Below, one piece after another: positions 383-29,174 of a stretch of 29,562 nucleotides of DNA. Within the stretch, counting starts at the first letter, position 1, and each line of letters opens with the position of its first letter. Source of the DNA: a virus; the IMG/VR virus record IMGVR_UViG_3300015366_000121, positions 1 through 29,562 of that record. One strand, written 5' to 3'. The translations under genes and the position numbers were made by a program. Under the pieces are notes generated by a model, which saw only the letters and a list, made by a program, of their open reading frames with translations, was not told where the DNA came from and ran no database searches.

Positions 383-1119
383 GCAAATTAATTAAATTCG
401 TAGCAGTTGGTGATAACCACGGAGACATGGTAGACAAAGATGTTGCCAAAGAGTTTTATAAGTTTTTAAAGAAATTCAATCCGCATGAAATCGTGCATCT
501 TGGAGATAACTGGGACTTCCGTTCTATTAGGCGTGGTGCTGGTGCAAGAGAGGAAAATGAATCACTAGTTGCTGATGTAAAGGCTGGCAAAGAATTTATA
601 AGCCGTGTAGAACCTACAGTTTTTTTAAATGGAAACCATGACGATAGGTTAGACCAGATTATTGAGGGAAGCACCATTGGTATGATGCAAGATTATTGTA
701 TGGATTTAAAACAAGATATTCGTAATCACTTAAAGAAACATGGTTGTAAAAAGATTTACGATTATCATGCTGAAACAGGAGTTCATCGTATCAATAAAAT
801 TGCCTTTGTGCATGGCTATACTTGTGGTGTTCGTGCGGTAGAAGAACACGCTATTCATTACGCAGAGCCAGAGGGTGCTGTCATCATGGGTCATATCCAT
901 AGCATTCAGCAAATTAACGCCAGAAAGCATTTAGGGGCTGTTGGATTCTCTGGTGGATGCCTATGTCAAAAAAAGGCAATTGGCTACGCTAAAAATCGCC
1001 TAGCCACCTCAAAATGGGGGTCTGGCTGGACTTATGGGTTCGTCCAAGGGAAAGACTGGAAAGTGTGGCAAGCCCATAGGGTGGGAAAAGAATTTATCTA
1101 TTCTATTAAAGGACTATGA
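379..1119 (+). CDS. Calcineurin-like metallophosphoesterase
   Basis: A 246-aa protein with the ordered metal-binding motifs of the calcineurin-like phosphoesterase family: D12 and H14 (GDNHGD), D43 (LGDNWD), N86-H87-D88 (NGNHDD), H145 (FVHGY) and H172/H174 (GHIH). These would bind two divalent metals to hydrolyse a phosphomono- or phosphodiester. The substrate cannot be told from sequence; phage members of this family include DNA- and nucleotide-processing phosphatases. The GTG start has a good ribosome site and a 4-nt overlap with the preceding gene, and the stop overlaps the next ATG (1116-1119). No signal peptide is visible, so it is probably cytoplasmic. It belongs to the plus-strand block that converges on the late operon, so it may be an early or metabolic gene. 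Confidence 0.85.
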   Translation: MSKLIKFVAVGDNHGDMVDKDVAKEFYKFLKKFNPHEIVHLGDNWDFRSIRRGAGAREENESLVADVKAGKEFISRVEPTVFLNGNHDDRLDQIIEGSTIGMMQDYCMDLKQDIRNHLKKHGCKKIYDYHAETGVHRINKIAFVHGYTCGVRAVEEHAIHYAEPEGAVIMGHIHSIQQINARKHLGAVGFSGGCLCQKKAIGYAKNRLATSKWGSGWTYGFVQGKDWKVWQAHRVGKEFIYSIKGL

Positions 1120-3358: not shown

Positions 3359-3664
3359 TTATTTAGTTTGTTTAATAAATTTTCTTTTTATCCACTCAAA
3401 TATGTCTGGGGCTAACGCACCAGCAGAGGAATATATAATGCCCTTATAAATTGCATCTATGGGAGCATGGTTGATGGCGAAGTAAATCAGCGTACCAACT
3501 ATCGAGCCAGCAATAACCTTACGGACAAAGACAACTGCTTGCCATTTTTCTTCTGTAATTATGAATCTAGCAATAGCACCCAATGCTCCTAGGACAGCAA
3601 CCACCCAACCGCCCTTCTTAAATTCTTCTGCTGTCTCAATAAGCGTTGGGTCTACAGGACTCAT
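3359..3664 (-). CDS. Putative holin, three membrane segments
   Basis: A 101-aa protein with three predicted membrane helices at about 18-36 (GGWVVAVLGALGAIARFII), 46-64 and 72-90, and a short Lys/Arg-rich tail (WIKRKFIKQTK). Size, topology and the basic C-terminus fit class I phage holins; the GALGAIAR segment resembles the LydA-type holin group, though this is a recollection and not a search result. It would form the inner-membrane lesion that releases endolysin. Its start overlaps the stop of the 2281-aa gene (ATGA at 3661-3664), and the candidate spanin lies one gene further downstream. Confidence 0.7.
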   Translation of the reverse strand: MSPVDPTLIETAEEFKKGGWVVAVLGALGAIARFIITEEKWQAVVFVRKVIAGSIVGTLIYFAINHAPIDAIYKGIIYSSAGALAPDIFEWIKRKFIKQTK

Positions 3665-6600
3665 CGTTTAGGTTCCTCCCTTTGAACTCTACGCTTGGCT
3701 TGCTCTTCATCTTTATAAATACCCATCAATTGTTTGTAAGGATTATATACTCTAAAGTTGCCATTCTGTTGCATGATTATCCAACCTAACGCATTGCTTA
3801 AACTTGAACCATTGCTATATGTTTCAGTCTTCCAAGAACGCCATACACTGATATCAGCCTTAGTGTAATCACGCTTAGGCATTGGTACAGGAGGCTTAGG
3901 AACATTTGGAGTAGGAACTACAGGGGGAACTTTAGGTTGAATTACAGGAGGAACCTTAGGTTCAACTACAGGAGGAATTTTAGGAGGTACTATTTTAGGT
4001 TTACCTGTTTCTGTATCAATAATAGGTTTTTTATTTTCATCTACTTCAATCTTATTACCTTCAGTATCTATTATATATTTAGTTCCATCTTCTTCTATAT
4101 AAATCTTTTGTCCATCTTCAGTAACTTCATGAGTTCCTGTTTCTGTATCTACAACTGGTTGATGCACTTCTTCTTGTATTTCTTCCTGTACAGGATGTTC
4201 ATCACCAGTAATAAGTTCATATCTTTGGGTGTTTTCATTCCACATTCCAGCAGTAACTGGATTTCCTTTATTTGTAAGTTGAGGACTTGGAGGAACTTTT
4301 TTAATATCTCTTTTTAATCCACTAACATTTGAAACACTTTGTACAGATGTTTCTTCTATAGACTTAGGTTTCATTACACCTATTTTAACTGAATTCATTC
4401 CTTCAAAACCTGTTTTAAGTTTCTTCCATATTTGCCAATCTGATAATCCTTCAAGTGGGCTTTTCTTATTATTTTGAATAGCCCATTCATTCATTTTTTC
4501 TCTCCATTCATTTACATGAATCTTTTCATTTGAATTAAGATATCCTACAGGTCTTTCTGGCAACCTGTCATTAATACCTCTTTCGTTTTGTAAATCTGTC
4601 AAAAGAATGTCATTTGGGCTTCTTCTTCCAGCATCAAGAACATTTGTTATTTCATTTATTAATTGATTAAGTATTGTTTTGGTAGGCTTTCCTTCTGAAG
4701 TTACAAATTGAGATACTGCTTCTGAAACTTGATAATTTAAATCACTTATGTTAGGAAGTAGACCAGCCTTTGTTTCTGGAGTTTCAAGTGCTTTAAGCAA
4801 TTCTGGGTGTTCAGGAATAAGTGACCACTGACCCATTAACTGTGGGTCATTAAATAATGCTATTTGAAACTCAGCAGTAGATATAAGCCTATATACACTT
4901 CTTAATTTTAATTCAGGTGATTCAAGTTCAAATCCTTTTGTATTAAGAAATTGATTCAAATATGAATTAGTTGCTGGTGCATTTGCAGAACCACCAGTTC
5001 TATTACTAGACATTGCTTGCCTTGCATAATCCCAAGGAGAAGCAACAACATATCCTTTTTCAACAACACCTCTATTTGAAGAAGGTTTTCCTTTTTCAGT
5101 ATGAGTAGCCTTATTTAATACAACTCCTTTTGAAGTCCAAGCAGGTTCTATAGCACCAGTTTTTTCATTTTTAATAAATGTATTCTTAAGCATCCATTTT
5201 TGCAGTGCAAGTATTCTTGCAAATGCAACTTCTGATTTTGGAAGAGTTATTCCATTTGCAATTCTTAATTCAGTTCTAGATATAAATGCATCAACCCCTC
5301 TTGCCCATGGTTGTCCTTTAAGGTTAGAACCAGCGTCAGGATTATCATTATAAGTTAAAAGAAGATTTTTAAGTTCTGGATTAGCACCAATTGCATGTTG
5401 TTCAGCCTGAGCCAATAAAGAATGACCCATTTCTTCAAGTGCTGTTCCTTCAAATGAATGACCAGATAAAGCCTGAACTCTTCTTTGATATTCACTTCCA
5501 GAATAGTCTCCTATGTTGTATTGTCTTTTTTGTGCAATCCAAGCCTTATCAATTAACTGTGCTAGATTAAGATGAAGCGGTTGATGGCTTTTTCTTTCAG
5601 TTACTACAATTTGAGGAAATCTAAATTTAGCATCTTTCTGCTGTTCTTGTTCAACACCATCTTCTTCTTCTTCATCTCCACGAAAGAGTTTGGAAATATC
5701 CTCTTTTTCTTTTATTTCTTTTATTCCCTTTTTGCGTCGTTCAATTTCTTTTTTAAGATTTGCTGCTTCTCTTATTGATTCTGGGTCTATTGATTTTACA
5801 AGTTGTGCATATCTTTCCTGAAGTGTTGCTTCTCTGGTAACCCTTGCTTCATATTGAGTACCTACTGCAATATCATTGATTCCTCCATGCCAAGTCTTAC
5901 CAGCATTAATATGAACAGGAAGATTTAACTGATTATCTTCAGCCATAGCCATAAGATATTTTGCAATCTTGCTATGATAATCATTTGCAACATTAGGATG
6001 AATAGAATCACCCATGTCTGTAATATATTTTAATATATCTTTAACAAGTACAGTTGATTTTTTCTTTTGATGATAATCTAAATACTGCCAAAGATTATTA
6101 ATTCTTGGATTAGGAACTGTTGCAAATGGGTCTTTAGTTCCTCCAGCATGTCCAACTAAACTTTCAAATAAAGTAGGGTCAAACTGCCTTGGCTCCATCT
6201 GTGAAGGAAGGTTGTATTTTTCGTAAGTTTTAAATGAATCTTTAAATGTTTTATATTCTAAACTATCTGGAGAAAGCATTGCTTCTTCACCTCCAGCCTC
6301 ATGCGGAGAATAACGAGTATTAGGGTCTAGTTCATTTCTAACAAAAAGAGAGTTCTGTTGTTCTCTAAGTCTATGTTCCATTACCATTCTATCTACAGAT
6401 ACCTTATTTTTTGCCGCAAGTTGTTCAGCCTGAAATCTTGAAAGTCTAGTAAGGTCTGGAAGCGTATAATATTTATCTCCTCTTATTGCTTCATTTGGTA
6501 TAGACGCAGGAATTGTTTCAAAAGATTTTTGTCCTACTTCATCTTCAACTTCTCTCATTAATGAACCAAACATCTTTCTTCTTATACCAATAGGCTCTCT

Positions 6601-9600
6601 TCCAACAAGCATTCCATCCATATATTTAACATTACTAGCCCTAAGCCTTTCAGCCATTTCAGAATAAAGAAGTTTACCAAAACCTTTTCCTGTAAACTTA
6701 GGATTATCAACTGTAGAAAATCCAATAGTTGCGGCATCTTTAAAACGGTCTATATTTGCAGATATTGTAGCAAAAGAACTTCCATTGCTTCCATCCATAT
6801 CAGGATGATGAAGTTCTATCTTTAATCTATAAAGAGAATTTTGAGCAAGTTTAAGAGTAAGTTTTCCGTCTGGGTCTATCTTGTCTTTATTTAATTCATG
6901 AAATTTTCCTAAAAATGAACTTTTCCATTCACTTGATGCTAAATCATATTTGCGTCCAAATTCACCTGTTTTATCTCCATCATTCATATTAGATGCAAGA
7001 AGAACACTTGAAGGTTGTTTCAATGCTCTCTTACGCATTGCTTCAGCCGCATCATGAGATGTAGGGAATCTACCTATTTTATTTCCGTCTTCATCAAATG
7101 CATCAGTTTGTCCACCTTTGTATTGAATAGCCCTAAATCCAGAAGGATGCCAGAATGTTCGTCCATTAGATGTTTCTTCACTGTGCATCTCATTTGGTGA
7201 CCAGTTACGAACTAAATCTCTATAAGCATTGGAATGAGTATAAGGAAGGCTTTGTGACCTAACACGAACATTTGTCATTCGGTTAAGGCTAAAATCAAAT
7301 ACGCTAGACATTGAATTTCTTTTAATTTCAGCAAGAGGAGAATTCAAAAATGTATCAGAATCTCCTTTTGCAAGACCAAGAGCCTGATGCATTACATTTC
7401 TTCTGTCTTCACCTAGTCCATCAGTCCAAAGTTGTGCAGACGGAACCCTGTCAGCATTAACAGTACCATCAGGATTGAATGCATTTTTAGATGCATTTTC
7501 AAGATATCTATAAAAGTCAGCCTTAAATTCTGCAGTGTTTCCATTCCAAAGTTTCTGAGTATTAGGGTCAGCCCACATATTATTTAAACGCAGTTCAATG
7601 ACTTTATAATCAAGCATGTTAGCCTTGAATGTATAATCTCCATCTTTGCTAATGGCTATATCAAGACCGTACAATAATCCAGTCCTAGATTTAAATGGCA
7701 CATTCTTTCCCCACATTCTTGATGGGTTATTAACATCTCCAGCCCTTTCAGCAGTAACTCCAATACCACCAAAATCAATTAGATTACCTTTGATATCTCC
7801 AGAAATAACTTTCTGAGCCATCTTAAGTTTGTTTCCAAACTCTCTGCTCATGTGTCCAGAGTTAATCATTTGGTCAACAAGTTCATCACTAAATGGCCCT
7901 CTTATTACTCCTTCACCATCAGTAGTAAATGTACGAAGATTATCAGGAACACCCATAAGCATCTTATAGATATTCTTTCCTTTAATCTTATTTTCTTTAG
8001 CAATCTGTGCTTCTGTATTATGCCTATAAGTTCCGTCAGGCTGTTTTGAAAACACTCCATCAAGTCCATTACCATCTATAAATCTTTGTCTGGCATCTTT
8101 AGACAAAGCATTGATATCAAAAACTCCAGTTTGATTTACATGCCTTTCAATTTTAAGCATGTCTTTAAAGAATCGTTCCATAGCAGGATTGATAACTCTG
8201 CTACCCCTATAAGGTTTGAATACTTCATCAATAGGAACAAGTCTTTCTATGCCATCTTTATCAGTATATGTTCTGTTAAAATCAAATTCAGGATGACTGA
8301 AGTTCATTCTATCTCTCCAATATTCAGTCCAAGAAAGATTTACATTTTCTAAAACTCCACGAATTCCTGGCAAATCTCCAGCATGATATAGCCAATCTAT
8401 TGGCTTATTCATTACTAGGTGAGAGAAATAATATGCACCAAATTCTTCTGCAAGATGTTCAAGAAGCGGTCTTCCACCAAGTTCAGCATCAGCAATCATT
8501 TGGCCTCCTTCAGTCCACTTATCTTGAGCCATCTGAAGACGCTTTAAAGCATCAGTATGTGCTTCAGGATTTTGACTAAATTCAGCGTCAATGTATCTTC
8601 TGAACATATCATTAACTTCATTCTGTTTTATAACGCCTCTTTGGATTTCATTGCCAGCGTTATCCCTTTCTCCAAGAATTCTGCTTTTAAGTTCAGAAAC
8701 ATAATAATCTTTCATTACGCTTGTGCGTAAAATTGAATGCAAAATTTCGTGAGGAAGAGTAGCCCTAGATGCATTGTCTGCATTGATATGTATTTGCACA
8801 GAACCGTTAGCACTGTTTTCAACTACATATCCATTATTGTGTTCAAATGTTTTCTGGCTTAATGGCATATCGCCATCAGGAAGAATAGTCATTCCATCAT
8901 ACTTTTCAGGGTCAAGTCCTTTGCTAAGAAGAAATTCTTTGTTTCCTTCATTAGAACGAAGATTAATAGATGTATCAGGATGTACTATATCCTTAGCGGC
9001 AAGAATTCCATCAAATGAAAATCCTTTTGCATTAGCCCATGTTTCTGCATTTCTCCACATGTTAGCCTGAGCAGGAGCAGTTTCATCAAGACCTCTAAGT
9101 ACAAACTGTGCTTCAATGTTAGTACGCATCTTACGAGTAGCACCAAAAGCATCAGAAACCAATCGTCCAGTAGTAGCACCAATAGAACCTAAAGCCAGAC
9201 CAGCACCAGCACCAGCGGCGGCTCCCTCAGTTCCTTCACTCCACCAACCAAGACCAGCACCAATAGCAGAACCTGTAAAAGCACCTTCTGCTACATGTGT
9301 TCCGTAATCTATAAGTGGGTCAAATCCATTTACAAGTTTAAGCAAGGCTCTTGCCTGAGGAGATATTGCAACACCACTTCTGGCTGTCTCGTTTAATGCT
9401 CTTTTAGCATATGAAGCCAAACCACGCTCTCCCTGAAGAATCTGGTCACCAACAAGACCAACAGCCTCTCCTATGCCAGAAGCGGCTACAGATGCCCCAT
9501 AGGTGGCAGTACCAATTCCTACAGTCGCAGAAGCATATGGTATGCTATGTCCTAATGCAGAAGCACTAAGACTGCCTACTCCAGCGGCTTTAAGGCCATT

Positions 9601-10506
9601 CCTGAAGTCATCTTTAGATACTCCAGCAATAGCCTCAAATCCTTGACCAGCCTTCTCAGCCGCATAATCAAGAGTTCCTCTTGTTGCTTTTCCTACAAAT
9701 TCAATAGGAAATCCAACTCCATATTTAAGTCCACCACCAACAACAAGAGCCTTAAGACCCTCTATTTTAGCAGATACCATCATAGCCTTTTCACCAAGAC
9801 CAACAGCATGTGCGGCTCCGCTTGCAATACCTCCAAATGGAATAAACCAAGAAGGGTCAGCAACATAAGAAGCGGCCTGAACTACATCATTATTAAGAAG
9901 GTCTTTATCTTTTATAATAAGACTTGTTTCACCTTTTTCAAGTTGTCTTCCTTCTCTTAAGAAGTTTCTAGCATCAAGAAATTCACGATAAGCCGCATCG
10001 CTATTTTCTTTAACTCCATTTAATGCATTAAAAAATCTACTTTGAGGTGATGTTGAATTAGCACTTTGTGCAAGAATACCATACATCATTCTTGTTGATT
10101 GACCAAAAGCCTCAACAACGCTAGGTGCTAATTTATTGGTTATATCTGATGGATTATCAGCAAGCGAACTTCCTGCTTTTGCAAATTGTTTATATATACT
10201 TCCAGCCGCACCAGATAAAGAATCAAATATATCTGTCTCCTTTGTTTTATAAAAATCATTTAACTTCATCCAATCCTCTTTATTAGGGTCATATACTTGT
10301 CCTGCTTCATCAGCGTCAAGCATATCTCTATGGATTTCTTCACCGCTTTTAGGTGCAGTTATTTTATCATAAGCATCTTTTCTTTCTTCCTCTGGAAGAG
10401 AGTTTATGTAAGAATCAACATCTGGATTTCCAGTAAAAACTTGTCCTCCAATGTTATTATTATTTACAGGTGCTTCACCCTGAGGACTAGCATATATTTC
10501 AGCCAT
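3661..10506 (-). CDS. Giant multi-domain ejected-type virion protein with zinc-protease and GNAT motifs
   Basis: A 2281-aa protein in the position of T7 gp16. A Gly/Ala-rich hydrophobic, glycine-zipper stretch occurs at about 402-461. A zincin motif HEILH lies at 586-590, with a possible third ligand in EHLAEEFGAYY (E687/E688), suggesting a metallopeptidase. An acetyltransferase-like motif A (TGKGFGKLLYSEM, about 1272-1284) suggests a GNAT domain. A highly charged helical region lies at about 1570-1630. The C-terminus has a Pro-rich linker (about 2170-2210) and a short terminal domain. Polyvalent proteins of this kind are known from phages and mobile elements and are often packaged and injected with DNA. 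No lytic transglycosylase motif was recognised. The start fuses to the preceding stop (TAATG at 10506) without a Shine-Dalgarno. Being injected and modifying host proteins is inference from family knowledge and position. Confidence 0.8.
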   Translation of the reverse strand: MAEIYASPQGEAPVNNNNIGGQVFTGNPDVDSYINSLPEEERKDAYDKITAPKSGEEIHRDMLDADEAGQVYDPNKEDWMKLNDFYKTKETDIFDSLSGAAGSIYKQFAKAGSSLADNPSDITNKLAPSVVEAFGQSTRMMYGILAQSANSTSPQSRFFNALNGVKENSDAAYREFLDARNFLREGRQLEKGETSLIIKDKDLLNNDVVQAASYVADPSWFIPFGGIASGAAHAVGLGEKAMMVSAKIEGLKALVVGGGLKYGVGFPIEFVGKATRGTLDYAAEKAGQGFEAIAGVSKDDFRNGLKAAGVGSLSASALGHSIPYASATVGIGTATYGASVAASGIGEAVGLVGDQILQGERGLASYAKRALNETARSGVAISPQARALLKLVNGFDPLIDYGTHVAEGAFTGSAIGAGLGWWSEGTEGAAAGAGAGLALGSIGATTGRLVSDAFGATRKMRTNIEAQFVLRGLDETAPAQANMWRNAETWANAKGFSFDGILAAKDIVHPDTSINLRSNEGNKEFLLSKGLDPEKYDGMTILPDGDMPLSQKTFEHNNGYVVENSANGSVQIHINADNASRATLPHEILHSILRTSVMKDYYVSELKSRILGERDNAGNEIQRGVIKQNEVNDMFRRYIDAEFSQNPEAHTDALKRLQMAQDKWTEGGQMIADAELGGRPLLEHLAEEFGAYYFSHLVMNKPIDWLYHAGDLPGIRGVLENVNLSWTEYWRDRMNFSHPEFDFNRTYTDKDGIERLVPIDEVFKPYRGSRVINPAMERFFKDMLKIERHVNQTGVFDINALSKDARQRFIDGNGLDGVFSKQPDGTYRHNTEAQIAKENKIKGKNIYKMLMGVPDNLRTFTTDGEGVIRGPFSDELVDQMINSGHMSREFGNKLKMAQKVISGDIKGNLIDFGGIGVTAERAGDVNNPSRMWGKNVPFKSRTGLLYGLDIAISKDGDYTFKANMLDYKVIELRLNNMWADPNTQKLWNGNTAEFKADFYRYLENASKNAFNPDGTVNADRVPSAQLWTDGLGEDRRNVMHQALGLAKGDSDTFLNSPLAEIKRNSMSSVFDFSLNRMTNVRVRSQSLPYTHSNAYRDLVRNWSPNEMHSEETSNGRTFWHPSGFRAIQYKGGQTDAFDEDGNKIGRFPTSHDAAEAMRKRALKQPSSVLLASNMNDGDKTGEFGRKYDLASSEWKSSFLGKFHELNKDKIDPDGKLTLKLAQNSLYRLKIELHHPDMDGSNGSSFATISANIDRFKDAATIGFSTVDNPKFTGKGFGKLLYSEMAERLRASNVKYMDGMLVGREPIGIRRKMFGSLMREVEDEVGQKSFETIPASIPNEAIRGDKYYTLPDLTRLSRFQAEQLAAKNKVSVDRMVMEHRLREQQNSLFVRNELDPNTRYSPHEAGGEEAMLSPDSLEYKTFKDSFKTYEKYNLPSQMEPRQFDPTLFESLVGHAGGTKDPFATVPNPRINNLWQYLDYHQKKKSTVLVKDILKYITDMGDSIHPNVANDYHSKIAKYLMAMAEDNQLNLPVHINAGKTWHGGINDIAVGTQYEARVTREATLQERYAQLVKSIDPESIREAANLKKEIERRKKGIKEIKEKEDISKLFRGDEEEEDGVEQEQQKDAKFRFPQIVVTERKSHQPLHLNLAQLIDKAWIAQKRQYNIGDYSGSEYQRRVQALSGHSFEGTALEEMGHSLLAQAEQHAIGANPELKNLLLTYNDNPDAGSNLKGQPWARGVDAFISRTELRIANGITLPKSEVAFARILALQKWMLKNTFIKNEKTGAIEPAWTSKGVVLNKATHTEKGKPSSNRGVVEKGYVVASPWDYARQAMSSNRTGGSANAPATNSYLNQFLNTKGFELESPELKLRSVYRLISTAEFQIALFNDPQLMGQWSLIPEHPELLKALETPETKAGLLPNISDLNYQVSEAVSQFVTSEGKPTKTILNQLINEITNVLDAGRRSPNDILLTDLQNERGINDRLPERPVGYLNSNEKIHVNEWREKMNEWAIQNNKKSPLEGLSDWQIWKKLKTGFEGMNSVKIGVMKPKSIEETSVQSVSNVSGLKRDIKKVPPSPQLTNKGNPVTAGMWNENTQRYELITGDEHPVQEEIQEEVHQPVVDTETGTHEVTEDGQKIYIEEDGTKYIIDTEGNKIEVDENKKPIIDTETGKPKIVPPKIPPVVEPKVPPVIQPKVPPVVPTPNVPKPPVPMPKRDYTKADISVWRSWKTETYSNGSSLSNALGWIIMQQNGNFRVYNPYKQLMGIYKDEEQAKRRVQREEPKR
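3932..3979 (-). repeat. 24-nt tandem repeat encoding Pro-rich linker
   Basis: Two nearly identical 24-nt units (each beginning TTAGGTT on the + strand) encode the PPVxxPKV repeat near the C-terminus of the 2281-aa protein. Degenerate PP units continue on both sides. It probably forms an extended spacer before the terminal domain. Confidence 0.7.
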
Positions 10507-13500
10507 TATTTTCTAAGATTTTGTAGATAGCGTTCTCTTGCCGCCATTATGTCGGAAGATTTATCTTTAGGAAGAATTACAGTCAAACCAAAAGCCTGAG
10601 GCTTTGTAACAATCTTTTGTAAAACATTATCACGCAATTGATTATATTTAGCCCTTGTTGTACTTTTAAGAGAGAAAAAATCAGTAGGATTTTGAACTAT
10701 ATCTTCAAGCAATTTTTGCTCATAATCAGATACATTACCAACACCAATAAGTTCTTTTCTTAGATTGCCAGCAAGTTCTCTTGTTAATTGTAATGCTCTG
10801 CCTCTTTGCTCAGGACTTAAAGAAGCAAATTGAGTTTCATTAATTTTTTCAAGTTTATCAACAATTGAAGTAGCATTCAATATATGTGCATATTCTTCCC
10901 TAAACTTGGTAGCGTCAGCAGGAGAACCAAAAGAACCAAGACCACCTATTTTAACTGGACTTGTAGATATAAACTGTGTAGGGACATAATCTCCATTTGG
11001 AGTAAGTTGACCAAACTGAACAGCCTTATTAGCGGCTATTTCATGAGGTTGCATACCAGCATGGCTCATTTGTTTCCATTCCTTGCCATCAAAGAACAAT
11101 GCACCATAGGGAGTATTTCTAAACTGCAAAGATTCTTCAGGATACATCTGCTTATACATATCATTAAACGAAGCAGGAAGATACCCAAACTTTTTAGTAA
11201 GATATTGTTTAAGTTGTGTTTTCTTTTCTTCAGCACTTAAAGTTTCTGGAATCTGTACACTTCCTAGTGTTTGAGGTTTAACATAAGTATAATCGCTTAC
11301 ACCAGTTCCAGAATCAACAGTGTTATTTTCAGAAGGTTTTTTATAAGCAGGATTTATTGTAGAATCTTGACCAGCAAGAACCTTTGGATAAATGTCGTTA
11401 AGAAGCATATCATGATTAACAAGTCTTGATTTTAACTGCTGTTCAATTCCAGAAAACCCCTGTTGTCTAGATTTCATATCGTTAATCTTGTTATCAAGAG
11501 TAGCCATGATTCTAGATTTTTCAAGAGAAGTCATATCATCCTTAGCACCTAGTTCTGTTGCAAAAGGAATTCCTCCAGCAAATCCATATCCAGTTCTTAG
11601 TTTTCTTACATCAGTAAGTGCAGAATTTATTTCTGTTCTTATTGTTGCATCATAAATATTGTCAGGAACATCTTCTTTTCCACCCTTAACCATTCCATTA
11701 ACAAGAGCAGTCCAGAAAGCACCTCTTGACGCTTGAGTTCCAACTTTTGCAACAAGGTCAGCCTTTTGAGCCGCAGTAAGACTTGCTTTAATAAGTCCAC
11801 CTTCACGAAGTGCAGAATCAATGGCATTTCCAAGAAGTTCTTTTTTCCCAGCAGATGAAATAGTATCATTACCAATTTCAGCAACTTTAAGATATCCATC
11901 GTATTCCTTCTTTGCATTAGCGGCAAGTTGAGCAATTCTAGTTTCTTGTGCCATTCCTTTCATTCCTTGAATTGCCTGAACTCCTTGCTTTAGTCCTCCA
12001 CCAAGTTTAGCACCAGCACCAAACCAAAGCAAAGCCGCATCAGCACCTACTTTTGCAGCAATTGCAATATCAGGATGCATCATTGCAGATTGACCTATGG
12101 TGTTATAATCAACCATAGATGAATCTCCTTTTGCAACAGAATCTCTCATTGCCTGCAAATACCCAATAGCAGGCTGAATAGAACGCTTTTGCGAATCAAT
12201 ATCACTTAGTCTTTCATATGTGCTGTCTTTTGCTATACTGATTTTTTCTTGTTCAGGTTTCGTATAAGAACTAATAGGTTTCTGTGCAGACACTTCAGGA
12301 AGTTTAGCACCAGATGCAACAGCACTAGCCTGATTACCCATAGCAAGTCTACTAGGAGTATTTACTGGAAGTATGTTAAGAGGAACCTGTGTTGCATCAT
12401 CTTCAGAATCAACAACTTTATCTGGAGCAATTTTGCTCGCATTTATTTCTCCATTATAATGTATATTTCCCTCTGAATCAGTAGTATATTTATTTATATC
12501 TTCTTCACTTGGGGTAGATGCATCTGATGTATCTTCTGTTTCATTTGCTGGAACTGAAACATCATATGGACTTGGTGGAACTACCTCTCTATCACTAGGG
12601 TCAATTTCATTTTTGTTTTTATTTCTAGGTTTAAGAACCTGAATTCCCTTTTTAGGTTTAGCAACTTGTCCTCCAATTCCATCTACAGATAGGTCTATTT
12701 TAGTACCAACTTTAATAGTATTAGGATTGTAACCTTGTGCAATCATTGCTTTTGCAACCCACATAGTACTTCTTCCTGTTGCATTTGCAATCATAGCAGG
12801 AGTATCCCCTTTTTTAATTGTATACAAAGAACCTGAATTTTCAGAAGTTGATTCAGGAGCATTAAGATTACCAACTAAAGAAGGAGGTGCTATATTAGTT
12901 CTTATCTGTTGATTTGGGTCAACATATGCTCCACTTTCAGCAAGCACTCTACCAAGTTGAGTTCTTTTTGTTATAAGAGATTTAAGAAGAGAAACATCAG
13001 ATTCATCCTTTACTCCCCATTGTCTTGAAAGTTTATCTTGAAGAGCAATTGCTTGAGAATTTGTTTTCTTAAATTCATTGTACAATTGCAAACTTTGTTC
13101 AGGACTAAACTTAGGAGCAGGAGCCTGTGCTGTAACTGCAGATGCACCTAAATTAGTAGGAGTTCCTTCCTGTTGAATTGTTGGAAGATTAATGTCAGGA
13201 AGTCCTGTTTGAGCCGCAGGGTTTCCTTGATAAGCAGTAGCACCAGTTCCAGAATTAATAGCACTAGCAGGAGCAGGAAGTCCAGCAGGAGCAGGAAGTC
13301 CAGCAGGAGCAGATTGAGGAGAACCTTGTCCTTGAGCCCATTCATCATCTCTTGCATTTGAATAATATCTATCAAAAATTGCCTGAGGATGATTTGACAA
13401 TTCATCATTATTAAATGAGTCAACAGCATTGACATTTCCAATCAAATCTAAGGAATAAGCCTTAGCCTGAGGACTCATTTTGTCATTTGAATTAATAGCA

Positions 13501-15072: not shown

Positions 15073-15504
15073 TTAAGAGATTCCTTTTAATGTTTTCATA
15101 TAATGATTTGTAAGTTGTTTTGGTTTATCAAAGCGTACCATCCATTTGTCTTGTTTTTCCCAGTTAGGAAATCTTTCCCAAAGTTTGGACACTATAAATT
15201 CTGTTGATTTTTTTGTTTTGGAAATCATATCCATTACACATATATCTAAAATTGCTTCTTGTTCTTTTGTGAATCTTTCTAACGAAGGAACTAAATTCAT
15301 TATATTGTTATTAAATTTATTCTGCAATGCATAACATATACATACACCAGAAATACCATTTTCATCTGATGCAACTATAAGATAGTTGTTGTTAAAAGAC
15401 CATATTAGGTAATCAAGAAGTTCTCTGTCGGTTAATGTAAAAGGTTTTCCCCTGCCAGCGTATCTGTTTTGTTTTATAAAATCTGATAAATCAGTAAGAA
15501 ACAT
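15073..15504 (-). CDS. 143-aa protein at the T7 gp13 position, possibly GNAT-fold
   Basis: A small protein with a pattern of an N-terminal helix, a central hydrophobic strand pair (YLIVASDENGISGVCICYAL, residues about 41-60), a long helix (about 78-105) and a C-terminal strand. This recalls degenerate GNAT-fold proteins found just upstream of the gp14-like gene in T7-type phages (gp13). The CoA-binding Q/RxxGxG/A motif is not obvious, so it may be catalytically dead. Its start is fused to the fiber stop (TAATG at 15504), and the next gene begins one nt after its stop. The assignment rests on position and approximate fold only. Confidence 0.5.
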   Translation of the reverse strand: MFLTDLSDFIKQNRYAGRGKPFTLTDRELLDYLIWSFNNNYLIVASDENGISGVCICYALQNKFNNNIMNLVPSLERFTKEQEAILDICVMDMISKTKKSTEFIVSKLWERFPNWEKQDKWMVRFDKPKQLTNHYMKTLKGIS

Positions 15505-16577
15505 TAGGTGCTAAATATGCAAACATAAACTTCTGTGGAATCATTTCTAGAAACTGCTGTTCCACCAATAGTCATTGTGGCAATTTGAAGTTGTGTAGTT
15601 GTTTTAGTTGCAGTAGAAGCACCTCCGCTTAACACATTATCATATCCAAGACCTTTAGCACTTCCAATTACACAATAATTGTTATTTGCCATTGCTGTTG
15701 TAAATGTAATTGTGTAATCTCCAACACCATTTCTTGTAACGCTTGTTACATTGTATGAATTAGTAATTGTGCCAGTAGCACCAGCAAACACAACCCATGC
15801 CTTGCTAGTTGCCTTAGAACCACTATCTACATAGCCTTTTGTAGCCGCTTGTAATGTAGTTGTTGGTGCAGTATCTAAAGTAAAAGTTTTTCCAGTACCA
15901 ATAGTAACATTACCATTAAATGTTGTATCTCCAGTTATACCGCTTGCAAACTTTGTTACACCATTAAATGTTGTATTTCCTAGTGCAGTCAATGTTCCTC
16001 CAACAATTAATCCAGAAGTAATGTATTCATAACCATTAATATTAACAACTCCTAGTTTTGTATAAGATACAGTACCACTAGATGCAGTAGAAACTGGACT
16101 TATAGTATATGTAAATAAATCAACAGAAGTTACCGTAATTACATAAACACCACTAAATGCTGTATTAGAAGATGTAAAAGTAAGAATTTGACCAGTAGTA
16201 AGACCATGAGCAGTCGAAGAAACTGTAACTAAAATACCATCAACTGAAGCCCAAGCCTTTCCAGTTACAACCGTTCCAGAATTAGGAGTAATAACTATAT
16301 CTGAATTGCTTTGACCTATAATTGCAGATGTAGTAAGGGTTGTTACATTAGCAGTAGTTGCACTATTAAGAATATCCGTAATGCTTGCTTTGCGTAAGGC
16401 TGTTGCCGTTTGGTCGTATAGCAACACTAGGTCTGCACCATCAACAGAGCCAGAAAGGGCAGTCTGTTCGGTTATAGCACCATTAAGTAGGGTGGCGGCA
16501 TCAACAAGTTGATTGAGCGTAGTTCCAGTAACTTGGTCACCATTGTTGAAAGTTTGTCCTTTAGAGATTTGAGCCAT
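15504..16577 (-). CDS. Tail fiber / appendage protein
   Basis: A 357-aa Thr/Ser/Gly-rich protein. The first 75 residues (ISKGQTFNNGDQVTGTTLNQ, then DLVLLYDQTATALRKASITD) are of the type that attaches short-tailed phage fibers to the virion. The middle is beta-rich with repeated TTFNG/TTLTA units (about 205-250). A conserved-looking transition follows (TTTLQAATKGYVDSG). The C-terminal 95 residues (AWVVFAGATGTITNSYNVTS, GDYTITFTTAM, STEVYVCIFS) match a tip-domain pattern common in phage fibers. It probably forms trimers and contributes to host binding. It starts one nt after the nozzle gene stop. Confidence 0.75.
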   Translation of the reverse strand: MAQISKGQTFNNGDQVTGTTLNQLVDAATLLNGAITEQTALSGSVDGADLVLLYDQTATALRKASITDILNSATTANVTTLTTSAIIGQSNSDIVITPNSGTVVTGKAWASVDGILVTVSSTAHGLTTGQILTFTSSNTAFSGVYVITVTSVDLFTYTISPVSTASSGTVSYTKLGVVNINGYEYITSGLIVGGTLTALGNTTFNGVTKFASGITGDTTFNGNVTIGTGKTFTLDTAPTTTLQAATKGYVDSGSKATSKAWVVFAGATGTITNSYNVTSVTRNGVGDYTITFTTAMANNNYCVIGSAKGLGYDNVLSGGASTATKTTTQLQIATMTIGGTAVSRNDSTEVYVCIFST

Positions 16578-16578
16578 G

Positions 16579-18201
16579 TTATTTCTTGGAAATGAGGTTT
16601 TTGACCTTTTGGGTAGCGTATATAAAAGCAGAACGAATAGAAGGTCTTAAATTGTCTACTATAAATCTTAATTGCATTGAAGTCCCATATTTTCTAATAG
16701 GGACTCGTCTAGTTTCGTCATTATCAATTGGAGAACCATAATTGTCAATATGTTCAATGCTATCTATATTAGATACATCAGCATATGTCTGAACATGGCT
16801 TCCAGCAGTAAAATTGTAATTTATTTCTGCGTTAGTAAAACGCTTATCGCTGTACGAATTAAACACATAACTTCTTGTTTTAAGAACAGCATTAATTTGA
16901 TTAGTTTTAAAGGCTGTTGCGTTTAATTTAGCAGGAAGATAAAACGGCAAAATAGGACTTCCAGTAGCAACACCATATTCATCCCAATCTAACTCTTCCA
17001 TCAACATCACGCCTTCATCGTTATCAATACAAAATAGTCTCCTTTGGTTATCCTTCTTTGCTATGACAAGATTTAATATATCAAAACCAGATGGATACAC
17101 ATCTACCGATTCCCATTGCTTAAGGATGAAATTAAACACCAGCACAGCATTGTTAGCAGTCGAATTGTCCAAAGGAACGGCAAGGTAATAGCGGCTGTTC
17201 CAATAGGTAGCAACAGCACGATAAGCATAATTTCTGTTGATTCGTTGGATAACATCATTAATTGGGGCTGATAATGGGTCTGCTTTAGTCAATAGTCGCA
17301 TAGACTCATTAGAACCTACCTCAGAGGGAGTCATAAAATAAACTCCGTTATCAGAAAGAAATAATACCCCACCGTTTGCTTGAACTACGCTTTTTTTAGC
17401 CATGCAACCTATGTCGCTGACCAGCGTTTTTACAAAAGATTCACTACCAAGTGGGTCGCTATAGGCATATCTTCCAAGTCCAATATTTGTGTAATAAATG
17501 CTATTACGCATAAACACAACAAATTCATTAAGAGTCCAAGGAGATACAGAAACTACTTCATCATTACTACCTTGATTGAAAGTAAATGCATCTGAAATGT
17601 CCCAGTTATCAAAATCTAAATAATTGCTTACGCATACAGTATCTCTTACTCTAGGATGACCAGCGGAAACATATCCATTGTTGTGGTCTTGTCCTATGGC
17701 AAGCATTCGATTGCAATAATAAATAAGTCCTATGCAATTAGGAAAAGCATTTCCTGTACCAGATGTTGGAAAAGCAGTAATTGTAGTTGCTAAATCCCAT
17801 TTTAATGGACGCTTATCATGTCCACGACTAATATAGACATTATCTACAGCACTTATAACATCACATCCAACAGAGGTTGTAATAGTCTCTCCAGAAGGAA
17901 AGTTTATTTTTGAAGAAAGCGTTTCAGTCTGAGGGTTATAAGTATAAAGTCCGTTAGTAACTACAAATACTATTATTTCCTGTCCTGTTGAATCTAAATA
18001 TACTCCAGAACCGTAAACCTGCTGTCCAACAAGGACTGAAGAAGTTTTACGCTGAAGTCCTTTTCTTACCGTAGCAACTCCACGGTCAAGACGAAAGTTT
18101 TGAGATTGACTGACTACCCCTTTAGGCAATGCGGCAGGGTTATCACGGCTATTAAGCCCGATAAATGCCATATCTCCATCCTGTTGGTAGTCATTAGCCA
18201 T
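16579..18201 (-). CDS. Tail nozzle / tail tubular protein B-like protein
   Basis: A 540-aa protein placed after the connector genes and before the fiber. The N-terminus (GLNSRDNPAALPKGVVSQSQ, NFRLDRGVATVRKG) is the typical opening of phage proteins that form the distal tube or stabilise the tail tip: 'points of interest' around a list of values, then beta-propeller-like repeats (LFLSDNGVYFMTP, LVFNFILKQWESVDVYPSG). Length is somewhat shorter than T7 gp12 (794 aa). The C-terminus is basic (YATQKVKNLISKK). The start is fused to the stop of the 34-aa membrane peptide (TAATG at 18201), with AGGA a few nt upstream. Confidence 0.65.
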   Translation of the reverse strand: MANDYQQDGDMAFIGLNSRDNPAALPKGVVSQSQNFRLDRGVATVRKGLQRKTSSVLVGQQVYGSGVYLDSTGQEIIVFVVTNGLYTYNPQTETLSSKINFPSGETITTSVGCDVISAVDNVYISRGHDKRPLKWDLATTITAFPTSGTGNAFPNCIGLIYYCNRMLAIGQDHNNGYVSAGHPRVRDTVCVSNYLDFDNWDISDAFTFNQGSNDEVVSVSPWTLNEFVVFMRNSIYYTNIGLGRYAYSDPLGSESFVKTLVSDIGCMAKKSVVQANGGVLFLSDNGVYFMTPSEVGSNESMRLLTKADPLSAPINDVIQRINRNYAYRAVATYWNSRYYLAVPLDNSTANNAVLVFNFILKQWESVDVYPSGFDILNLVIAKKDNQRRLFCIDNDEGVMLMEELDWDEYGVATGSPILPFYLPAKLNATAFKTNQINAVLKTRSYVFNSYSDKRFTNAEINYNFTAGSHVQTYADVSNIDSIEHIDNYGSPIDNDETRRVPIRKYGTSMQLRFIVDNLRPSIRSAFIYATQKVKNLISKK

Positions 18202-18305
18202 TACTTTCCTGTGATTGCGTGTAGCAACTCTCTGAGCATTTCAGCCCATCTAGCACCTACATAAACACCACCAAGAAAAGAAATTATGAAAAGAAGTATA
18301 GTCAT
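18201..18305 (-). CDS. 34-aa single-span membrane peptide
   Basis: A tiny ORF encodes MTILLFIISFLGGVYVGARW and a short amphipathic tail ending in HAITGK. Residues 2-18 form a membrane segment with a GGVYVG small-residue patch. Both ends are exact TAATG fusions: its ATG sits in the stop of the 89-aa gene, and its TAA overlaps the nozzle gene start. It fills the gap between those genes perfectly, which strongly supports translation. Function unknown; a membrane peptide among tail genes could aid lysis or be a minor virion component. Confidence 0.65.
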   Translation of the reverse strand: MTILLFIISFLGGVYVGARWAEMLRELLHAITGK

Positions 18306-18574
18306 TAGATATTAGGGGTAGGAGCAATAATAGGAGCAGGAGCAGAACTAATCTTAGGAGTAGGATTAACAGCAGAAACTTTGCATTCAATGCCAAGTTT
18401 AGTCAATTCAGATTTAAGATTATCTTCTGTGTCCGAAGACAAAATGGAAAGAAGAGTTGTAGCCTTGCCGCCATTAGGAAACTGAGAATAACCAATAGTC
18501 TTCTTAAGTTTAGAATCATAAAAGGCAGACCAGCCAGCAGGGATTTCGATTGTTGTTGTATTAGTGTTAGACAT
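18305..18574 (-). CDS. Unrecognised 89-aa protein
   Basis: A small protein with an N-terminal compact part (IEIPAGWSAFYDSKLKKTIG, then a helix at about 48-62) and a Pro/Ala-rich C-terminal tail (SSAPAPIIAPTPNI). No family is recognised. It lies six nt after the repeat-fiber gene, and its stop is fused to the 34-aa peptide start. The fusion on one side and tight spacing on the other support expression. Confidence 0.6.
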   Translation of the reverse strand: MSNTNTTTIEIPAGWSAFYDSKLKKTIGYSQFPNGGKATTLLSILSSDTEDNLKSELTKLGIECKVSAVNPTPKISSAPAPIIAPTPNI

Positions 18575-18580
18575 AAATTT

Positions 18581-19759
18581 TTAGGATAAAGAATAATAAA
18601 CTCCATAATTACCATCACAATAATAATAAAGCATAATAGAAGTTCCATTATTATCTGTAAATAGAACTGATGTTATAAATTGTCCGTAAGGATAAGAAGA
18701 ACCATAACCAGTATAATAATAACCACAATATCCATCATTGAAATAATCATAACTATATGAACCTATAGGATATTGATTTCCAGATATAGTAACTAAATTA
18801 TATCCGCTATCTGTATATGCAAATGACCCATACGGAGGACATGGAGGGGGAGTAGGATTTGAGTACCAACCACCACTTCCATCACTATAATAATCGTAAT
18901 CTATAGAAAATTCAGCACTACAAGTTCCTATATATGTTCCCCAAGGAGCCCAATTGTCACTTACAAAGTTGGAGTAATAACCACCATTTCCATCAGCAAA
19001 ATTTTCATTATAATAACTTCCTATTCGCCAGTCTCCGCATCCAACATTTATATAACGATTTAAATTATAGTCACAAATACCATAACTTGTACCCATATTT
19101 TCATATCTTTGATTTTCATTAGTTATATAACTTCCACCAGCACCATCTGCCCTAGTTACAACATCATAATATGAAGTATATCCTTGAACGCCACATCCAA
19201 CATCAAAATCATCATGTGCAGGATAAGAATCTAAAATATAACCATAATTATACCAAAAATAAGTTGAACCATAAGATTGATACATAACACTTCCATTAGT
19301 TGTATAACCAATTACAGTTCCTGTAGCATAATATTCAGCACTATATTGATAATGATAACTTCCACCAGCCCCATCTGACATATGAACATCATATGCGTAA
19401 GCAAAATCAAATGATACATTTGTTCGGTCATCCCAAGACCAAAGTAATGAATAAACTGTATCATATCCAGAAATTATAAAACCATAAGGATAAGAACATG
19501 GAATTATTCCTAGATAAAGAGGGTTAGATAAAAACCATCCAGAACTTCCTCCCTGTCCATCTGCTTTTTCAACCCATATATCTAATGAATAACCATCCCA
19601 TTGTTGACCTAACGCATCAAAATAAGTCTGTGTTCCCCCCAATGAATCACCATTACCACAAGCCAATGCAAGAACACTTCCAGCCGCAGGATATCTTGAA
19701 AAAGAGTTTTGTGAAAGCCCTTTTCCTACACTTAAATTATGGTTAACTCTTGTAAGCAT
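18581..19759 (-). CDS. Tyr/Gly/Asp-rich repeat protein, putative fiber or receptor-binding protein
   Basis: A 392-aa protein (from the ATG fused to the preceding stop, TAATG at 19759; a longer reading from TTG at 19774 is possible but unnecessary). It has seven DG-x-x-G units, most with the form [AS]DGxGGxY, at residues about 67, 129, 205, 256, 293, 342 and 382. Each is preceded by a tyrosine-rich strand and a [YP]xG-x-x-[IF] turn. Cysteines occur in several units (C34, C88, C189, C229, C241, C280, C307, C345, C381). Composition is extremely rich in Tyr, Gly, Ser and Asp with very few Lys. A repetitive beta structure is likely. Among tail genes it is most likely an adhesin or side fiber. No named family is recognised. 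Confidence 0.7.
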   Translation of the reverse strand: MLTRVNHNLSVGKGLSQNSFSRYPAAGSVLALACGNGDSLGGTQTYFDALGQQWDGYSLDIWVEKADGQGGSSGWFLSNPLYLGIIPCSYPYGFIISGYDTVYSLLWSWDDRTNVSFDFAYAYDVHMSDGAGGSYHYQYSAEYYATGTVIGYTTNGSVMYQSYGSTYFWYNYGYILDSYPAHDDFDVGCGVQGYTSYYDVVTRADGAGGSYITNENQRYENMGTSYGICDYNLNRYINVGCGDWRIGSYYNENFADGNGGYYSNFVSDNWAPWGTYIGTCSAEFSIDYDYYSDGSGGWYSNPTPPPCPPYGSFAYTDSGYNLVTISGNQYPIGSYSYDYFNDGYCGYYYTGYGSSYPYGQFITSVLFTDNNGTSIMLYYYCDGNYGVYYSLS

Positions 19760-20076
19760 TAAACTTCCGACCAAGCAAGATGGATAGGAGTAGCATCAAC
19801 AGAAGCATTAGCACGAATAGCACCGTTATAATTATCCACAGAAATCAACTGACCAGCGGCAACTTGCAAGCCTTGGTCACCAGTAGCATTAAAAATAACC
19901 TGTATGGTAGCACCAATTGTAGACTGATTTTGAATAACAACAAGAATACGCTTTGTGCCAACAGAAGAAGGACTAAGAATTTCTGTGCTTGTAGTACTTG
20001 TAGCAAGAGTATCTATTGTTCCACTTTCGTGAAAAAAACTACGAAGAAACGGAGAGGATGTTTGAATTATCGACAT
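19759..20076 (-). CDS. Small beta-rich putative virion protein
   Basis: A 105-aa protein rich in Thr, Ser, Ile and Val, with strand-like segments (KRILVVIQNQST, ATIQVIFNATGD, GQLISVDNY, DATPIHLAWSEV). The pattern suggests a compact beta-sandwich, as in small phage decoration, head-completion or fiber-base proteins. It lies between the connector-like gene and the repeat fiber, with which it shares a TAATG stop/start, so the two may assemble together. Function not recognised. Confidence 0.6.
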   Translation of the reverse strand: MSIIQTSSPFLRSFFHESGTIDTLATSTTSTEILSPSSVGTKRILVVIQNQSTIGATIQVIFNATGDQGLQVAAGQLISVDNYNGAIRANASVDATPIHLAWSEV

Positions 20077-20080
20077 AAAA

Positions 20081-20875
20081 TTAGTAAGTTTGGGTCATAT
20101 TTATTTTGCCAAACTGAGCCTGTTGGCGTAGGAATTTATCGTACTCAAGGTCAATTACTTCCTTGGCTTTTGCCTCTAATGAGGCGGCTTCTGTAACAAG
20201 AGTTTCAGATACAAACCAATTAGCCGCTGAACCCCAAGCCATATACATACCAAAAATATAAGGAATGTTTATCTTAGTCCAAGAAGAAGGATAATTTGTT
20301 GGATTTTGTCCAGCCTGTGTTGAATTAGCGTTACAAATATAAAAATTACCGCTGTGAGGTTTTCCAAGGACAGGCATTAAAGCACCTGTTCCAGAACCAG
20401 AGTCAAAATAAATTTGAGACCCTTGATAATAGACCACAGTAGGGTCATAAGGGTCACCAGTAAGTGCAGGAACAGGTAATCTGTATAAATACCATCCTTC
20501 TTTAATTATGCTCATAACGATGACTTTTTTTGTTGTTCCATCATCATACAATGTGTATCCAAGGTTAACTGCCCTTGTAGAATCCATCGGGTTTCTATTC
20601 CAAACTCCAAGAACTTCACTAGCATCTGGGTCTTGTATAAAATAGGTTATGCCTGTATCGCCTACGCTGATTGTTCCTTGAGGAGCATCAGTCTGTGTTG
20701 TAAAATACTTCAATCTGACTACATCAGTCCATTGGTTTGATTCCCAAGCCTCACGAAGTCTAAATTGTGCGAAATCTCTGAATTGAGCAAAAGTATCAGC
20801 AGTTATGTTATTCCTATCGTTGCCAGTAAATTGTACTGCATCGAATAGAACTTGGCTGAAATCAACTGTTCTCAT
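20081..20875 (-). CDS. Putative head-tail connector (tail tubular protein A position)
   Basis: A 264-aa protein in the place of T7 gp11. The first 50 residues are helical (FAQFRDFAQFRLREAWESNQ), followed by a beta-rich middle (SVGDTGITYFI, RAVNLGYTLYDDGTTKKVIV) and a helical C-terminus (TEAASLEAKAKEVIDLEYDK). The helix, beta insert, helix arrangement fits adaptor proteins that sit under the portal and join it to the nozzle. It starts within the stop of the preceding gene (ATGA at 20872-20875). The assignment is from position and fold pattern only. Confidence 0.5.
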   Translation of the reverse strand: MRTVDFSQVLFDAVQFTGNDRNNITADTFAQFRDFAQFRLREAWESNQWTDVVRLKYFTTQTDAPQGTISVGDTGITYFIQDPDASEVLGVWNRNPMDSTRAVNLGYTLYDDGTTKKVIVMSIIKEGWYLYRLPVPALTGDPYDPTVVYYQGSQIYFDSGSGTGALMPVLGKPHSGNFYICNANSTQAGQNPTNYPSSWTKINIPYIFGMYMAWGSAANWFVSETLVTEAASLEAKAKEVIDLEYDKFLRQQAQFGKINMTQTY

Positions 20876-21244: not shown

Positions 21245-22282
21245 TTAGGCCGAGAAGTTAAACACGCCGAATGCCAAAGGATTGTAGACGCAAAGCCCAG
21301 CAACCGCTTCAATCATTCTTGCTTCACCGCCGCCATAGTTCGGGAGAGCAGTCACGCCAGCAACATTGCCACCGTAACGAATTTCCAGAAGGTCGAAGGG
21401 GATAACGAAACCCTTGTTCACATCGCCAATACCAGAACCATCGATATTGATGAAATGCGAAGGGTGGAGTCTCAACTTACCGAAATCGCCCTCAAACACA
21501 TCAACAGACGAGATGTAGGACGAAGCATCGGATTCACGATTCAGAGTGCGGATAGCAGACTGGGTGTTTGTAGAACCAGAAGAAGGAGTTGTGTAAGCAA
21601 GATTCGTGAAGGCTCTCTTAAGGGCAGAACCGCAAACGAGGTCAAAGTCACGGAACTGACCAGTCTGTGTATAGATGCCTGTGAGGACATTCTGAACAAC
21701 AGTTTCAGTAAGAGCCGCTGTGCCGACAGTCGAAATGTTGGCAGTAGGTGTCTGGAAGGCGGTAGGAATCGGGTGAACTGTATCCTGAGAGCCGCTACCA
21801 GCCGCTGTGAGCCACTTACCAAGACCTCTGGTGAGATAGGGGTTTGTGCCATCATCGGCTTGCATACCATTGCTGGAAGCAACGGTGCTTTCCATGTCAC
21901 GCTTAAGTCCCTGAATACCCTTAGCAACATTGTTAGCGAGTTCATCACGGACACCAGCAACAACAGCGATATCCTGAGTAAGAGGAGACACACGGACTGC
22001 TCTACGGAAAATCTGAATGAAGTTGCTCAGTTCAGCACGATAGACAGTAGAACCATCCTTGACATAGTTTTCATAGGAAGTAACATCCGTACCATCGACT
22101 GTACCAGTTGTTCTGGGAGTCGGGAGACGGTCTGCCTGCCATCTGAAAAGAGTATTGCCAGGTTTGCTACCCTTCTTCGCCATGGAAGTGATTGGGGTGT
22201 CTTTTGCATCGACCATCGAGATAAGGTCTGCGAGTTCTTCTCTCTTACCAGACGAGAAGGAGGGTTCTGTTAGATTAGCCAT
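21245..22282 (-). CDS. Major capsid protein (SU10/DUF5309-like)
   Basis: A 345-aa protein directly after the scaffold. The opening (SGKREELADLISMVDAKDTP, then ITSMAKKG and NTLFRWQADRL) and the later IQIFRRAVRVSP and GLKRDMEST stretches match the pattern of DUF5309 / SU10-type capsid proteins with the HK97 fold, as recalled from the family. The end (GEARMIEAVAGLCVYNP) is also typical. GC is about 50% by hand count at 21841-21960, well above neighbouring late genes, which fits the codon choice of a very abundant protein. There is no Shine-Dalgarno; the 20 nt before the ATG are A/T-rich. Confidence 0.8.
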   Translation of the reverse strand: MANLTEPSFSSGKREELADLISMVDAKDTPITSMAKKGSKPGNTLFRWQADRLPTPRTTGTVDGTDVTSYENYVKDGSTVYRAELSNFIQIFRRAVRVSPLTQDIAVVAGVRDELANNVAKGIQGLKRDMESTVASSNGMQADDGTNPYLTRGLGKWLTAAGSGSQDTVHPIPTAFQTPTANISTVGTAALTETVVQNVLTGIYTQTGQFRDFDLVCGSALKRAFTNLAYTTPSSGSTNTQSAIRTLNRESDASSYISSVDVFEGDFGKLRLHPSHFINIDGSGIGDVNKGFVIPFDLLEIRYGGNVAGVTALPNYGGGEARMIEAVAGLCVYNPLAFGVFNFSA

Positions 22283-27674: not shown

Positions 27675-27749
27675 TGGAGCCTTGAATTGGGATTGAACCA
27701 ATGACCTACGGTTTACAAAACCGTTGCACTACCACTGTGCTACCAAGGC
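27675..27749 (-). tRNA. tRNA-Thr (anticodon UGU)
   Basis: A full 75-nt cloverleaf: acceptor GCCTTGG/TCAAGGC, D stem GCAC/GTGC, anticodon stem ACGGT/ACCGT with loop TTTGTAA (anticodon TGT), T arm ATTGG-TTCAATC-CCAAT. The 3' CCA is encoded. It decodes ACA, a codon favoured by AT-rich genes. It sits between endolysin and TerL on the same strand, so tRNA processing would cut the late message here. Confidence 0.93.
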
Positions 27750-29011: not shown

Positions 29012-29025
29012 AATAATATAGTAAG

Positions 29026-29098
29026 TGGGTGCGGCTGGATTTGAACCAGCGTTTCTTCCGTTATGAGCAGAGTGTTCTTACCTTTGAACTACACACCC
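29026..29098 (-). tRNA. tRNA with CAU anticodon (Met or Ile2)
   Basis: A 73-nt cloverleaf: acceptor GGGTGTG/CGCACCC, D stem GTTC/GAAC, anticodon loop CTCATAA (CAT), T arm GCTGG-TTCAAAT-CCAGC. The anticodon stem has one C-A mismatch at its base. CCA is not encoded. The CAU anticodon may be an elongator Met, or Ile decoding AUA if modified to lysidine. Confidence 0.88.
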
Positions 29099-29102
29099 TA
29101 AT

Positions 29103-29174
29103 TCGACCCTCAAGGAATCGAACCTTGATAACCCGCTTAGAAGGCGGGTGTTCTATCCGTTGAACTAAGGGTCG
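29103..29174 (-). tRNA. tRNA-Arg (anticodon UCU)
   Basis: A 72-nt cloverleaf: acceptor CGACCCT/AGGGTCG, D stem GTTC/GAAC, anticodon stem CCCGC/GCGGG with loop CTTCTAA (TCT), T arm CAAGG-TTCGATT-CCTTG. CCA is not encoded. It decodes AGA, matching the AT-rich codon choice of the late genes, and lies 4 nt from the tRNA-Met. Confidence 0.92.

Follow-up and report, generated by a model that had tools for sequence, protein, structure and literature searches.

A 29.6-kb IMG/VR virus record (IMGVR_UViG_3300015366_000121; "the window" denotes this whole stretch of 29,562 nucleotides) encodes a 392-amino-acid (aa) protein that is probably an exchangeable tail-fibre adhesin of a podovirus with an SU10-type capsid, built from β-hairpin repeats and served by a dedicated small partner. 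The evidence, computed directly, comprises the DGxxG repeat itself, its position in the genome, the fibre-like proteins that take its place in related phages, DG-like fusions in other lineages, the co-occurrence of the small gene p89, and the predicted hairpins.

Repeat structure of the 392-aa protein

The open reading frame (ORF) lies on the minus strand, beginning with an ATG at 19759 and ending with a stop codon at 18581, and its start codon is overlapped by the stop of the upstream p105 gene (..TTTAATGCTT..). Seven DGxxG motifs are spaced 62, 76, 51, 37, 49, and 40 residues apart (Table 1), within the 37 to 76 residues given in an earlier sequence-only reading of this DNA. That reading described seven tyrosine-rich DG-x-x-G units with almost no lysine, and the composition agrees: 60 residues are Tyr (15.3%), 9 are Cys, and 2 are Lys. 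In 100,000 same-composition shuffles the number of DGxxG motifs never rose above 5, and DGxGGxY, present four times in the protein, never occurred more than twice. The proposal that the units share [AS]DGxGGxY and a PxG turn held in part: [AS]DG is found in five of the seven motifs, the exact DGxGGxY in four, and a P-x-G or P-x-x-G turn in five units, but in units 3 and 4 the proline of the turn is missing.

By summed pairwise scores, the seven units are more alike than their shuffled counterparts (Z = 7.1). Removing the motif lowers Z to 2.7, and the observed score is then surpassed by some shuffles. Similarity between units is therefore mostly the motif itself and is weak outside it, which points to a repeat that is either old or evolving fast. 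When a unit HMM was trained on relatives alone (see below), it matched the 392-aa protein with E = 7.6e-5 in a search set that included 1000 of its shuffles, none of which was reported, placing its DGxGG hairpin units in the same family; most of the score came from unit 6.

Table 1. Features of the window discussed in the text.
Feature	Coordinates	Strand	Description
Second tail-fibre-like gene, p357	15504..16577	-	357 aa; PHROG 11355 "tail fiber protein", E = 5e-18
Nozzle (tail tubular protein B) candidate	16579..18201	-	540 aa; PHROG 3287 and 578
p89, small partner gene	18305..18574	-	89 aa; downstream of DG gene; relatives 60-78 aa
DG-repeat fibre protein (probable)	18581..19759	-	392 aa, seven units; N-terminal segment of ~20 residues precedes first unit
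Unit 7, DGNYG	18602..18616	-	residues 382-386; C-terminal hairpin
Unit 6, DGYCG	18722..18736	-	residues 342-346; turn, strands 328-341 / 347-355
Unit 5, DGSGG	18869..18883	-	residues 293-297; turn, strands 287-292 / 298-303
Unit 4, DGNGG	18980..18994	-	residues 256-260; turn, strands 242-255 / 261-270
Unit 3, DGAGG	19133..19147	-	residues 205-209; five-residue turn, strands 196-204 / 210-219
Unit 2, DGAGG	19361..19375	-	residues 129-133; low-confidence stretch of model
Unit 1, DGQGG	19547..19561	-	residues 67-71; low-confidence stretch of model
p105	19759..20076	-	conserved small protein directly upstream
p264, putative adaptor (head-tail connector)	20081..20875	-	assigned by position and appearance only
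SU10-type major capsid protein (MCP)	21245..22282	-	PF17236 SU10_MCP, E = 9e-47, above curated cut-off; PHROG 1328

Functional annotation was examined using Pfam (E <= 1), PHROGs (E <= 1), and NCBIfam (E <= 0.1), none of which supplied a family, and PDB sequences gave no match at E <= 10. The protein thus remains of unrecognised family, as had been remarked from its sequence, and found no place in a known non-repeat family of the three libraries. Profiles of the collagen and phage tail repeat families likewise gave no match at curated cut-offs. MORN, choline-binding, and RHS/YD repeats, which the protein suggests by appearance, were set aside because Pfam returned no family at E <= 1. A literature search for the DG motif returned nothing.

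Predicted fold

AlphaFold2, run on a single chain with the family alignment, modelled residues 196-392 with mean pLDDT of 72-95 over ten-residue blocks, and residues 68-188 with low confidence. The relative L102 was modelled full length at a mean pLDDT of 90.8. In the confident part of the window protein all five DGxxG motifs (residues 205, 256, 293, 342, and 382) are predicted to form five-residue turns between antiparallel strands, as are all five in the L102 model (79, 138, 189, 237, and 268), so that the monomer prediction contains a repeated fold of β-hairpins, in the C-terminal half here and throughout in L102.

Foldseek against the PDB found nothing at E <= 0.001, and the best matches of a second structural comparison with the PDB (Z = 3.1 and 2.2) were both fibronectin type I fragments. 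Failure to match a predicted model in the PDB does not prove that its fold is new. Significant matches in BFVD were uncharacterised phage proteins, one of which contains collagen. Among BFVD entries, A0A6J5QYY7 from an uncultured Caudovirales phage matched the L102 model with E = 1.3e-14 and 41% identity; it is a member of the family, itself uncharacterised, and adds no function. PDB "fucose-binding lectin" matches at E = 0.24-0.28 were not counted as evidence of glycan binding.

Genome context and exchange at the fibre position

Scanning IMG/VR with the window's major capsid protein yielded 80 related loci. Gene order is conserved: MCP, p146, p264, p105, a slot of variable content, in some a small gene, nozzle, and p357. 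The 392-aa protein fills the slot here. By profile search the nozzle candidate was also linked to PDB 9k09 ("Tail tubular protein B", E = 3.3e-7); searches of PDB sequences returned no relative for p264 and nothing for p89 or p105. In phage SU10 the adaptor is gp11, the long-fibre proteins are gp12 and gp13, the short-fibre protein is gp16, and the nozzle is gp17 (PMC9509320). Because the fibres of SU10 are numbered between adaptor and nozzle, the slot corresponds to the place where the tail module of a podovirus carries its fibres, and the adaptor end of the slot is set by the position and appearance of p264 only.

The slot is exchanged wholesale between close relatives. The phage of contig L002 has an MCP 95%, a p105 71%, and a nozzle 80% identical to those of the window, and its slot protein, of 603 aa, is unrelated to the 392-aa protein and carries Fibritin_C above the cut-off, as does the slot protein of L018. 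These fibritin-type fibres share the p105-to-nozzle site with the DG proteins; the Fibritin_C domain is theirs, and none of the DG proteins scanned contains it. Further non-DG occupants matched tail-fibre PHROGs, or Laminin_G_3 below the cut-off; the latter was not counted as evidence of glycan binding.

That the protein is a head fibre, or decorates the capsid, and uses p105 as its base for capsid binding we considered very unlikely. The two genes do lie close behind the capsid genes, p105 overlaps the slot gene and is kept regardless of the slot's occupant, and some slot occupants match "virion structural protein" PHROGs of the head category. The DG gene, however, lies beyond the putative adaptor and adjoins the nozzle gene, the PHROG labels of the other occupants are mostly tail, and the fusions found elsewhere involve tail-fibre-type domains.

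Downstream of the nozzle, p357 would be the main host-recognition protein if the DG protein decorated the tail or neck or acted there as a structural spacer, with a hairpin chain that stiffens or fills. p357 matches a tail-fibre PHROG, and in many relatives its tblastn matches reach no further than about residue 100, as one would expect if the fibre binds a receptor; this pattern suggests a second exchangeable host-contact protein. Even for an adhesin at the slot, p357 may be the main receptor binder instead. We nevertheless judged a spacer unlikely: the wholesale replacement seen in L002, where the MCP and nozzle are conserved and the slot protein is unrelated, fits host recognition better, and the fibres of L191 and L238 bear DG-like repeats at their C-termini.

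Elsewhere in the window, a 2281-aa ORF (3661-10506) had no Pfam or PHROG match. A candidate calcineurin-like phosphoesterase (379-1119, plus strand; Metallophos_2, E = 2e-5, just under the cut-off) is encoded on the other strand from the structural genes, and there are three tRNA genes (Thr-TGT, 27675-27749; Met-CAT, 29025-29098; Arg-TCT, 29103-29174).

Relatives of the DG-repeat protein

IMG/VR contigs contain about 40 relatives; almost every one sits in a single slot, flanked by the putative adaptor and nozzle genes, in genomes of related podoviruses. They were sought with sub-alignments and DNA patterns because the full-family alignment was too variable for a pattern search. Searching 2.9 million viral contigs with the DNA pattern for YWDGxGGYY gave 37 stretches, bordered by the genes that flank this slot, and a p89-like gene came next in most. 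Additional relatives from profile scans also sit in this slot. The closest relative found, L225, occupies this slot and is 32% identical over residues 1-211 (E = 8e-18). Among stand-alone DG proteins the shortest has 174 aa (L229) and the longest 417 aa (L225); motif counts run from about 3 to 10, so that unit number does differ among related phages.

Family members share an architecture in which a variable N-terminal peptide of ~15-30 residues precedes a conserved first unit, [FY]P-x-x-GT ... DGxGG-x-Y. Middle units are variable, EVPSGSGNYYxNG being frequent among them, and the proteins usually terminate in a final hairpin. In L035, two DG-repeat proteins stand in tandem in one slot (10285-10893 and 10871-11764) with near-identical N-terminal segments, possibly a recent duplication.

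Outside these contigs, tblastn of the protein and its relatives against 50,697 phage records (INPHARED) gave no convincing match, although the low-complexity filter may hide some, and a collection of bacterial and archaeal genomes contained no DG relatives. A single-sequence scan of IMG/VR with the 392-aa protein also found none. Manatee Spring matches to L038 (E = 0.4) were to a 1.7-kb hypothetical ORF in a differently arranged genome and were dropped.

The partner gene p89 and other phage lineages

Across the 59 distinct loci that have both p264 and nozzle, p89 was present in 28 of 34 DG loci and in none of 25 non-DG loci (Fisher p = 5e-11, a value uncorrected for shared ancestry). In the other 6 of the 34 DG loci it was undetected. 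Small genes from slots that hold no DG protein showed no similarity to p89 in comparisons of shallow profiles.

A similar pair of genes recurs in other phages. A p89 relative directly adjoins a DG protein in the contig fragments L191, L194, L218, L238, and L250, in which the window's capsid and tail proteins have no tblastn match, and in the first four of these the next gene reads, by inspection, as a terminase. In L191 and L238, Collagen and/or Phage tail repeat domains are followed at the C-terminal end by DG-like repeats, and in L218 a collagen tail fibre is followed by the DG gene. Of all the evidence, this placement after fibre domains speaks most strongly for a distal fibre module. Together with the genome position and the alternative slot occupants, these fusions support the fibre-like character proposed from the sequence. 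Since matches to the 392-aa protein were weak (L191, E = 1e-5; L194, 6e-6; L238, 0.07; in a small set), these three are counted as members by their motif, their layout, and the p89 gene next door.

A Cys-containing DGxGG repeat

A second repeat of similar layout, GTxLxxxC...YADGSGGxY...NSxxCGYxPP, was observed in one to eight copies in many different proteins of viral contigs (L171-L290; for example L240, L178, L215, L189, and L267), with no named family in the libraries searched. The YADGxGGxY pattern occurred in at least 120 stretches, and among the 120 listed, 59 carry PxxGTxL-C-YADGxGGxY-NSxxCGY-P units in varied proteins. In L205 (1983-3629), L172 (6136-7701), L176, and L184, Cys-type units precede a long C-terminal part; the L205 protein has a lipoprotein-like start and metalloprotease matches that are sub-threshold only, and these proteins look cellular or prophage-borne rather than like fibres.

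The Cys-repeat proteins L240, L178, L215, and L189 share the GTxL...DGxGGxY layout with the window's units. Unlike the window protein, they have two conserved Cys per unit and are not Tyr-rich. The DG proteins might be a divergent, Tyr-rich branch of this repeat (GTxLxxxC...YADGxGGxY...CGY), a general-purpose module for binding or for stalks that is not confined to fibres, which we regard as possible while leaning against it. Layout and motif are held in common, unit 5 of the window protein retains both Cys positions, the relative L086 scored 20.9 bits with the Cys-unit HMM (best shuffle, 12.5), and the family HMM, searched against 55 proteins, matched L240 with E = 1e-7. The 392-aa protein itself scored 13.0 bits against 12.5 for its best shuffle, within reach of chance, so its likeness to the Cys repeat, as judged from sequence, is suggestive and homology is not established. 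Such an origin would be compatible with the fibre reading and alter only the family relation.

Proposed role and comparison with known systems

For a tail-fibre adhesin, we infer that the protein is present in the virion, perhaps as a trimer, where its N-terminal segment would anchor it near the adaptor, possibly with p105, and a chain of β-hairpin modules would project from that anchor. Each unit would be an antiparallel sheet in which DGxGG forms the tight turn joining two strands, with PxG as the junction to the next unit in most cases. Receptor binding is plausible, and host contact would be carried by the Tyr-rich strands and loops. p89 would be a partner dedicated to this protein, probably a cap or a chaperone for its assembly. 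Repeat gene and p89 would thus form an exchangeable cassette at the host-recognition position, the adhesin being altered by gain, loss, and divergence of units. Tentatively, the pair could be an undescribed mobile two-gene adhesin cassette that couples a hairpin receptor-binding fold, free of solved relatives, to a dedicated chaperone and serves unrelated podoviruses, in some as a fibre by itself and in others as the tip of a conventional fibre.

The tips of phage fibres set which host is infected, and in environmental phages most of them escape recognition by sequence. The recognisable motif, the predicted modular fold, the fixed slot, and the partner gene allow candidate host-recognition proteins to be found and compared in a group of uncultured podoviruses, and the role of p89 to be tested directly.

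Among known phages, the arrangement resembles that of SU10 (Kuravirus), which also has its fibre genes between adaptor and nozzle and has the capsid family PF17236 in common (PMC9509320). It differs in that the long and short fibres of SU10 showed no sequence similarity to the 392-aa protein in the searches made, and in that both are trimeric (PMC9509320) whereas the 392-aa protein is a predicted hairpin chain. A fibre with its cognate chaperone held in common by distant phages has a documented precedent in Alteromonas phages A5 and V22 (PMC10579305). By comparison with their chaperone, p89 and its relatives are only 60-90 aa long and the chaperone role is putative; like the DG gene and p89, the A5/V22 fibre and its chaperone cap travel together between distant phages (PMC10579305).
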